This document shows, one piece after another, positions 29,214-30,337 of a stretch of 64,000 nucleotides of DNA. Each line of letters starts with the position of its first letter. The first letter of the stretch is position 1. Below the pieces are notes generated by a model, which searched no databases, was not told the origin of the DNA, and saw nothing but the letters and a program-made list of their open reading frames with translations. The position numbers and the translations under genes are program-made. The stretch lies in the NCBI GenBank assembly GCA_021234155.1, contig JAJEKV010000099.1, forward strand, positions 3,381,453-3,445,452. The letters are read 5' to 3'. This DNA is from Isoetes taiwanensis (taxonomy: Eukaryota > Streptophyta > Lycopodiopsida > Isoetales > Isoetaceae).

Positions 29214-29823
29214 TGTGACGTTCCACGGAAATATACGCTATAAATACGTATATTTCTGGGCCCGTCACTATACAAGTCTACCTTCGCAGCCTTGTATACC
29301 ATAGGAAGTGGCAATGGGTGCACATCTAAGTTAAATGCTTAACTTAGATAACCTTAAGATAAGGCCCATTTCCACATGGCCTTATCCTATTGGGGCAACC
29401 GCCACATGGCCTCACCCCATTGGTGCCACGTGGCATCCCGTGTGGACCCTAACTTATATTAGCCTAAACCCTAACCCTAGACCTCTTTCCTGACCCTAGC
29501 ACCCTGAGACCCATCTACGCACTCGAAACTCTGTTTCGAGCACCATTTGCTGTGGCATAGTCTAGTGCAGCAGCCCCCGGAGTGTGGATTCGCAAGTGCA
29601 GCTTCGACCAATTCGAAGACCATGGAGACGCCAGGATTGGGGGGGAGTGCTTCTGGAGCAGGTATGTAGAGTAGTGCTCTTAGTAGTTATCTGGTAAGGT
29701 AGCACTCCAAATGGGTTAGTATTTCGTATCTAGGGTAGAGCCATCCTAGAACCCTTATTGAACATCTTGAACCCTAATCAAGGAACCCTAACTGTAAGTT
29801 AGATATGTATGATTAGGTGTGCA
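29214..29823 (+). repeat. 5' LTR of element B1 (right edge uncertain)
   Basis: Starts TGTGACGTTCCACGG. It aligns to the B2 LTR from the first base through GTTAGATATGTATGAT near 29812, with about 150 bp extra near 29290-29450 that B2 lacks. B2 ends in TATGATAAGCA. B1 continues as TATGATTAGGTGTGCA, so the exact end is unclear. No tRNA primer-binding site follows at either possible end, which is abnormal for an LTR element. CCTAAACCCTAACCCTA near 29464 sits shortly before the start codon. Confidence 0.75.
29622..29661 (+). CDS. LTR-encoded first exon of gag, with splice donor
   Basis: ATG at 29622 opens 13 codons plus one base (METPGLGGSASGA plus g), ending at GCAG/GTATGT, a near-perfect donor. 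B2's LTR keeps an ATG, exactly 40 nt and a donor (METLGMGGSASGG plus g, then GTAGGT). Joining to the acceptor at 33034/33035 completes an Ala codon and continues in the gag frame. The same join works in B2. Splicing is inferred from sequence. Confidence 0.7.
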
Positions 29824-30337
29824 AGCCACCGAAGGTAGTCAAGAAGCAAAAGGTGGGCGAGTGGGAATTCATCCTGAAGTAGGATCGTGAATTCCAGCGC
29901 CGCAAGAAGGTATACCAGGAGTACCTCCGTCGCTGGAAGAGGTACAATGACTGGTATTGCCAGCCAAACGTACAGAAGTACGTCAAGGGTGGGCGGCCAA
30001 AGAATCAGCCAAAGCCGCCACCTCCAAGACCGGAGCCGCCGAAGAAGGTCCACCATGGACCTAATTCCCGGCATGCCCGAGTCTTTCGGAAGATTAGGCA
30101 CTTCCAGCAGTGCACTAATCTCCTGATCCGGAAGGCATCGTCCAGGAAATAATGCAGGAGTTCCGAACCGACTACAAGGTGACACCCCTGATGGTCCGGG
30201 CCTTGCATGAGGCATCAGAGGCGGAGCTGATTCAGCTCTTTGAAGAGGGGAACCTCTGCGCCATACATGCCAAGCGGGTAACCGTCATGCCGAAGGATCT
30301 GCATTTGGCGAGGAGGATCCGGAAGGAGAGGCCATGA
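29817..30337 (+). pseudogene. Histone H3-like gene inside chromovirus B1
   Basis: From 29817 the frame is open (one TAG at 29874-29876) through a Lys/Arg-rich tail of about 80 codons with QRRKKVYQEYLRRWKRYNDW and a Pro-rich PKPPPPRPEPPKK, then an H3 alpha-N segment (FRKIRHFQQCTNLLIRKA). A small indel near 30135 shifts the frame. The rest, to the TGA at 30335-30337, reads as the H3 fold: FRTDYKVTPLMVRALHEASE, LFEEGNLCAIHAKRVTVMPK and DLHLARRIRKERP, ending where H3 ends. Loop 1 has canonical H3 length rather than the longer CENH3 form, and the tail is unlike normal H3. It lies between the LTR and the accessory ORF, inside the predicted gag intron. An acceptor at 29838 would put the LTR start codon in frame with it. 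The H3 family packages DNA in nucleosomes. The role here is unknown. Confidence 0.75.

Follow-up and report, generated by a model that had tools for sequence, protein, structure and literature searches.

A histone H3 gene kept at a fixed position in a chromovirus family of Isoetes taiwanensis

A stretch of 64,000 nucleotides of the Isoetes taiwanensis genome (assembly GCA_021234155.1, contig JAJEKV010000099.1, positions 3,381,453 to 3,445,452; hereafter the window) contains a broken retrotransposon, B1, with a histone H3-like open reading frame (ORF), ORF1, ahead of its structural genes. In the chromovirus family to which B1 belongs (family B), this H3 gene is multi-copy, fixed in position and selectively maintained, and a second, related family is alike. 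Because family B copies and the second family both hold a selected H3 at the corresponding place, this retrotransposon lineage has H3 as one of its own genes. The first-pass annotation, made from the window alone, had proposed that the retrotransposon encodes its own H3 variant. The frame recurred at a constant place from copy to copy, including in copy 2, the second family member in the window; the ratio of nonsynonymous to synonymous substitutions (dN/dS) was 0.121, and neither a host pseudogene nor a family lacking the cassette was the outcome. The features of B1 that concern the gene are as follows (LTR, long terminal repeat).

29214..48110, plus strand: B1, a broken Ty3-type element with another LTR element inserted in its middle
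29214..29812, plus strand: remnant of the B1 5′ LTR, the first ~599 of ~1,650 bp, by similarity to the 3′ LTR of copy 2 and to LTRs in 18 of 20 further copies
29817..30337, plus strand: remnant of ORF1, the H3-like gene, from codon ~190 to the end, with a stop at 29880-29882 and a deletion with frameshift at ~30134
30119..30337, plus strand: C-terminal part of the H3 histone fold, frame open (Pfam PF00125 Histone, 1.4e-18; PDB H3.2, 2.8e-22)

The C-terminal half of the frame had been read as histone H3, and the domain and structure matches of 30119-30337 bear this out; the H3.2 match, its best among solved structures, covered aligned residues 6-71, and 43 of 65 residues were the same as in canonical H3. 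A protein database search with the H3 part returned 458 proteins at E≤1e-10, and the 120 of them listed were histone proteins with 56-68% identity. The fold model of this piece was poor (predicted local distance difference test, pLDDT, 54), and the H3 fold is assigned by sequence. The upstream segment 29883-30152 gave no Pfam match at E≤0.1 and structure matches at chance level only (including H3.8 at E 0.7); its end reads as alpha-N once aligned with fuller copies. The tail returned 6 candidates, none at E≤10, from a database search in which only proteins of ~95-303 amino acids were eligible and a ~365-residue ORF was undetectable. No relative was found in the viral_contigs or genome_contigs collections. 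The G+C content at third codon positions was 0.73 in the tail, 0.66 in alpha-N and 0.76 in the fold; ten further ORF pieces from B1 and copy 2 gave 0.48-0.60. By codon positions, tail, alpha-N and fold thus share one coding signature.

B1 itself is dead, as had been noted, through the stop and the indel listed above. In addition, a deletion fuses LTR position ~599 of ~1,650 to the middle of ORF1 (codon ~190); B1 thereby lost its primer site along with the remainder of its LTR and the first ~190 codons of ORF1. As seen from fuller genome copies, no primer site follows the B1 LTR because this deletion took it out. Self-priming of B1 was considered and is unconvincing (best complement 9 nt). The missing primer site had also raised the possibility that H3 lies inside the LTR; this is ruled out, as three ~1.65-kb LTR pairs end before ORF1.

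The window H3 piece served as query against the assembly from which the window comes (1.658 Gb, 1,110 contigs). From 7,644 loose first-look candidates, 150 places were scored, and all 150, the window included, matched at E<1e-30 with 74-100% identity. By hand count, 34 of them had open frames of at least 360 codons. Two sets of loci were examined. The long-frame set consisted of 20 loci out of 33 places with frames of at least 365 codons (hand count). The score-ranked set consisted of 29 loci (L002-L030) with the next-best scores below the window, unselected for frame length and taken with 1.5-kb flanks; three long-frame loci coincide with its L016, L020 and L027. In the long-frame set the B1 LTR piece was matched in 18/20, the primer site TGGTATCAGAG was present in 18/20, a MARTK start lay at the expected place in 19/20 and the ORF2 start was found in 17/20. 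The distance from primer site to ORF1 start was 555-584 nt in the 17 loci having both. Among L002-L030, a MARTK-like start (at least 5/7 residues) lay upstream in 26 loci, 27 had the ORF2 start downstream in the same orientation, and a primer site (at most 2 mismatches) was within reach in 15. Other family B copies therefore carry the frame at the same place. In the fuller copies ORF1 starts, with MARTK, far upstream of the part preserved in B1. Separately, L034 (C1047:8838769-8844972, minus strand) holds the H3 ORF and a spacer in tandem, with a unit of ~2.43 kb in at least 2 copies that are 95% identical, in a satellite-like array.

Selection on ORF1 was estimated by the Nei-Gojobori method from 105 pairs among 15 full ORF1 copies, a set that leaves out L042 (motif unmatched) and L034, L036, L038 and L050 (in-frame MART not found). 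A dN/dS below 1 had been suggested as a check, and the value was 0.121 (0.100-0.151 in 60 bootstraps over codons). It was 0.059 for the tip (75 usable pairs, 10 codons only), 0.156 for the new insert (101 pairs), 0.088 for the tail (96 pairs) and 0.056 for the fold (105 pairs). The insert value is free of query bias because the insert lies outside the search query, although the choice of open frames still applies. Mean dS among the copies was near 1, and in the 7 pairs with dS<0.3 the ratio was 0.096. ORF2 gave 0.243, with long enough frames in 3/20 loci only, which allows no fair comparison between the two ORFs. That B1 itself is broken would suit a one-off host H3 pseudogene inserted into a dead element. 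This explanation, like that of a processed pseudogene, is ruled out by the 150 scored copies, the constant place, the dN/dS of 0.12 and the occurrence in copy 2, and we give it virtually no credence.

A second search, with ordinary H3 as query, also yielded 150 scored places. Fifteen were host-like, with 88-90% identity; then came a gap, and the other 135 lay at 66-84%. Both host-like places retrieved were ordinary H3 of 136 amino acids. Seven of the 135 were retrieved, and all seven have a longer frame in which a different N-terminal domain (cut short in L057) precedes a terminal H3 fold; the ARTKQT tip was absent in the six copies with the start seen. A primer site was present in 5/7; it followed an LTR-like end similar to that of family B and, in the four copies where the distance was measured, preceded the start by 745-878 nt. 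ORF2 of these copies was weakly like that of B (22% identity, E 1.7e-8, composition correction off), and one copy had capsid, protease, reverse transcriptase (RT), RNase H and integrase domains, the integrase core just under the cut-off. These copies form a second, related family, laid out correspondingly and with its H3 fold in the equivalent position. Across six copies dN/dS was 0.102 overall (12/15 pairs usable) and 0.046 for the fold (15/15).

Fold identity to one host H3 was 86-89% in six second-family copies and 65-69% in six family B copies. On a tree of the fold each family formed one group, 100/100 for the 15 B copies and 99/97 for the second family, with the bootstrap not settled. 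No ordinary host gene fell within either group among the places retrieved. One or two captures of H3 are both compatible with the tree. The two separate groups would also fit a recent, repeated capture from a host H3 variant, with selection having acted in the host and not in the element. However, only 15/150 scored places were host-like, with a gap down to 84%; the 15 B copies formed a single group with mean dS near 1; and nearly all examined copies sat in elements. We regard repeated capture as very improbable.

The full ORF1 of family B has 364-389 codons (15 copies). It runs from an H3 tip through a new part that is acidic and charged, a stretch rich in Lys/Arg and Pro, and alpha-N to a fold that ends at the natural H3 terminus. 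The new tail between tip and fold measures ~250 residues. The Lys/Arg- and Pro-rich tail of about 80 codons described from B1 is only the last part of this longer tail. In the window segment this stretch is predicted to contain a helix (single sequence, mean pLDDT 74). The canonical tip MARTKQT was present in 14/15 full-length copies and ARTK in 15/15; in comparison with ARTKQTARKS, K9 was kept in 14/15 and S10 in none. The usual contexts of K27 and K36 are, as far as seen by eye, absent from the long tail. By sequence, alpha-N and a three-helix histone fold of H3 length are present. Two full ORF1s that were scanned contained the complete fold (PF00125, 5.3e-29 and 2.1e-27; PDB H3, 3.3e-31, for one ORF), and no domain besides histone passed the Pfam cut-off in either. 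Ten residues, R83, C110, H113, K115, R116, T118, D123, L126, R129 and I130, which we take to be DNA-contact or H3-H3 interface residues of host H3, were unchanged in 44/44 natural copies.

ORF1 resembles the centromeric variant CENH3 in joining an H3 fold to a diverged tail. CENH3 is recognised by a lengthened loop 1. Loop 1 of ORF1 reads FRTDYRVT in the printed copies versus FKTDLRFQ in canonical H3, of equal length, and, unlike in CENH3, the ARTKQT tip is kept. CENH3 is ruled out by these two features, in agreement with the first-pass view that the frame is not simply CENH3.

From its position, multiplicity and selection, ORF1 is a histone H3 gene captured by a chromovirus lineage. Its product would most likely pair with host H4 via the conserved H3 interfaces. 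It may then be deposited on DNA, the element's new copies included, as a long-tailed H3 variant with the K4 tip kept and S10 gone. Such a variant could loosen silencing of the element or serve the integrase as a chromatin landmark. The biochemical role is thus one that we infer, and we put at about even the chance that the captured H3 was kept as an element gene whose product pairs with host H4, is deposited on DNA, and loosens silencing or marks an integrase site. A bolder form is possible but rather doubtful: the lineage might build its own nucleosomes, the H3 variants of the two families (a K4/K9 tip with a 250-residue tail; a new domain replacing the tail) forming element-specific chromatin that evades silencing and guides the integrase.

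Alternatively, ORF1 may work in the particle, as a basic H3-like protein that condenses cDNA and aids nuclear entry or integration without ordinary nucleosomes. The location of ORF1 5′ of the structural genes, the long charged tail with its predicted helix and the changes at positions 86, 87 and 90 in 44/44 copies are consistent with such a role. However, residues of the H3 interface and of the DNA contacts rank with the most conserved, and the identity of the second-family fold to host H3 goes beyond what a mere basic condenser would need; we consider this role unlikely. A decoy is another candidate, in which tip and fold would titrate H3 chaperones, methyltransferases or readers and so blunt silencing in trans. 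The ARTK tip in every full copy points that way, as do changed positions in the fold that presumably include chaperone-specific ones, but the six second-family copies with the start seen lack the ARTKQT tip, and a decoy seems unlikely too.

Several observations weigh against a captured H3 that acts in nucleosomes. B1 and copy 2 are both broken. F84, S86, S87, M90 and Y99 were substituted in 44/44 natural copies, and these changes could harm the fit to nucleosome or chaperone. The copies were picked by score and open frame, which lowered dN somewhat. In a neutral-decay simulation scored against Pfam, at least 1 of 50 decays scored better than the window copy (1.1e-20 versus 1.3e-18). When the profile was instead derived from what the query itself had hit, 0/1000 decays beat the window copy in each of three settings; the simulation is not decisive. 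Finally, in the 17 copies measured, seven to eleven ATGs follow the primer site ahead of ORF1, so it is not evident how ORF1 would be translated from the genomic RNA, and an internal promoter or splicing is more probable. Nine printed copies had in common a TTTAAATAT box, ~85-95 nt upstream of the ORF1 start, and a pyrimidine-rich stretch. In 7/9 of these (L031, L032, L035, L037, L040, L041 and L049) ACGTCA, which we take to be the plant histone-promoter hexamer, stood ~25 nt before the start. It may be fortuitous or left over from the gene that was captured.

In the fuller copies the order is a 1.65-kb LTR, a tRNA-type primer site (TGGTATCAGAGC, which we take to be complementary to initiator tRNA-Met), ORF1 (~365 codons), ORF2, gag-pol, a polypurine tract and an LTR. 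The 3′ ends of three elements were retrieved. Their LTR pairs were ~1.6-1.65 kb long and 93-94% identical (Kimura two-parameter distances 0.048, 0.080 and 0.052), and, by eye, 5-bp target-site duplications were seen in 2/3 and chromodomain sequence in 3/3, broken in L054. A polypurine tract preceded the 3′ LTR in copy 2 and in all three. The remaining features of the window are listed below.

30338..31323, plus strand: ORF1-ORF2 spacer holding three occurrences of a ~70-nt motif, ~200 nt apart (self-BLAST; matched in other copies)
31324..32714, plus strand: ORF2, function unassigned, broken in B1 (open reading frames)
33451..35605, plus strand: B1 gag capsid, protease and initial portion of RT (Retrotrans_gag, 6.3e-06; RVP_2; RVT_1)
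35604..46701, plus strand: a different LTR element nested within the B1 RT (585-bp direct repeat, 99% identical)
46702..48110, plus strand: remainder of B1 RT, RNase H and start of integrase; homology of B1 to copy 2 stops here
53934..54391, minus strand: partial 3′ LTR of copy 2, polypurine tract before it (sequence comparison)
55239..64000, minus strand: ORF2, gag, RT, integrase and chromodomain of copy 2, with an insertion at 57218-59498

The first-pass placement of the H3-like frame between LTR and gag was right in that it precedes gag, but the supposed gag at 31324 is ORF2, and the capsid domain (Retrotrans_gag) lies at 33451-33765. Three pieces of B1 ORF2 contained no Pfam family above the cut-off. 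ORF2 is an additional ORF between the H3 gene and gag that is also seen, in weak form, in the second family. Copy 2 runs on the minus strand from ~54391 past the window end; its ORF2 occupies 62531-64000 within the window, and its ORF1 lies just outside (contig C1110, locus L051), with the start present and the frame broken. A chromodomain (PF00385, 1.5e-11) forms the end of its integrase and supports the assignment to chromoviruses. A plant element had also been proposed, and the nearest named relatives of its protease-RT are indeed mostly plant proteins (~43-50% identity among the matches listed that cover at least 90%). Gag, protease, RT, RNase H, integrase and chromodomain were all found by Pfam when pieces of B1 and copy 2 were combined. 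The copy 2 insertion is flanked by 319-bp direct repeats (97% identical) and is a small nested element. The element nested in B1 (35603-46711 in this comparison) has a second copy in inverted orientation at 18346-24379 (~76% identical). Positions 1-9000 of the window hold tandem repeats with a period of ~1.09 kb, one family of which starts with GGATCC.

Silencing of plant retrotransposons works largely via H3 and its marks. If true, an H3 that an element carries for itself, maintained by selection in numerous copies and across two related families, would be a direct counter-move in the silencing conflict. It would show histone variants arising outside host genes. The copies also offer a natural collection of H3 variants whose tails depart radically from the usual one, and with it a way to test whether mobile elements can modify the nucleosome. 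Among the literature matches listed, in a search that excluded subscription papers and preprints, none described an H3 encoded by a retrotransposon. A review of plant additional ORFs (PMC7264820) does not once use the term "histone", and the passages seen deal with other ORFs. Orchid Gypsy elements carry an ORF for an AlkB N6-methyladenosine demethylase (PMC9289625). According to the accessible portion of that paper, they resemble the present element as a plant Gypsy lineage with a fixed additional host-like domain, but differ from it in that the ORF is an RNA demethylase and the elements have a Tat-like dual RNase H and no histone. The element described here shares with plant chromoviruses the LTRs, primer site, the order gag, protease, RT, RNase H and integrase, and a C-terminal chromodomain; unlike them, it has an H3 gene and ORF2 before gag. 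Histones are also encoded by viruses, as in the H4 of bracoviruses and the histone doublets of Marseillevirus. In both cases a mobile or viral genome codes for a relative of a core histone, but those are DNA viruses, whereas here the carrier is an LTR retrotransposon and the histone an H3 with a new tail.
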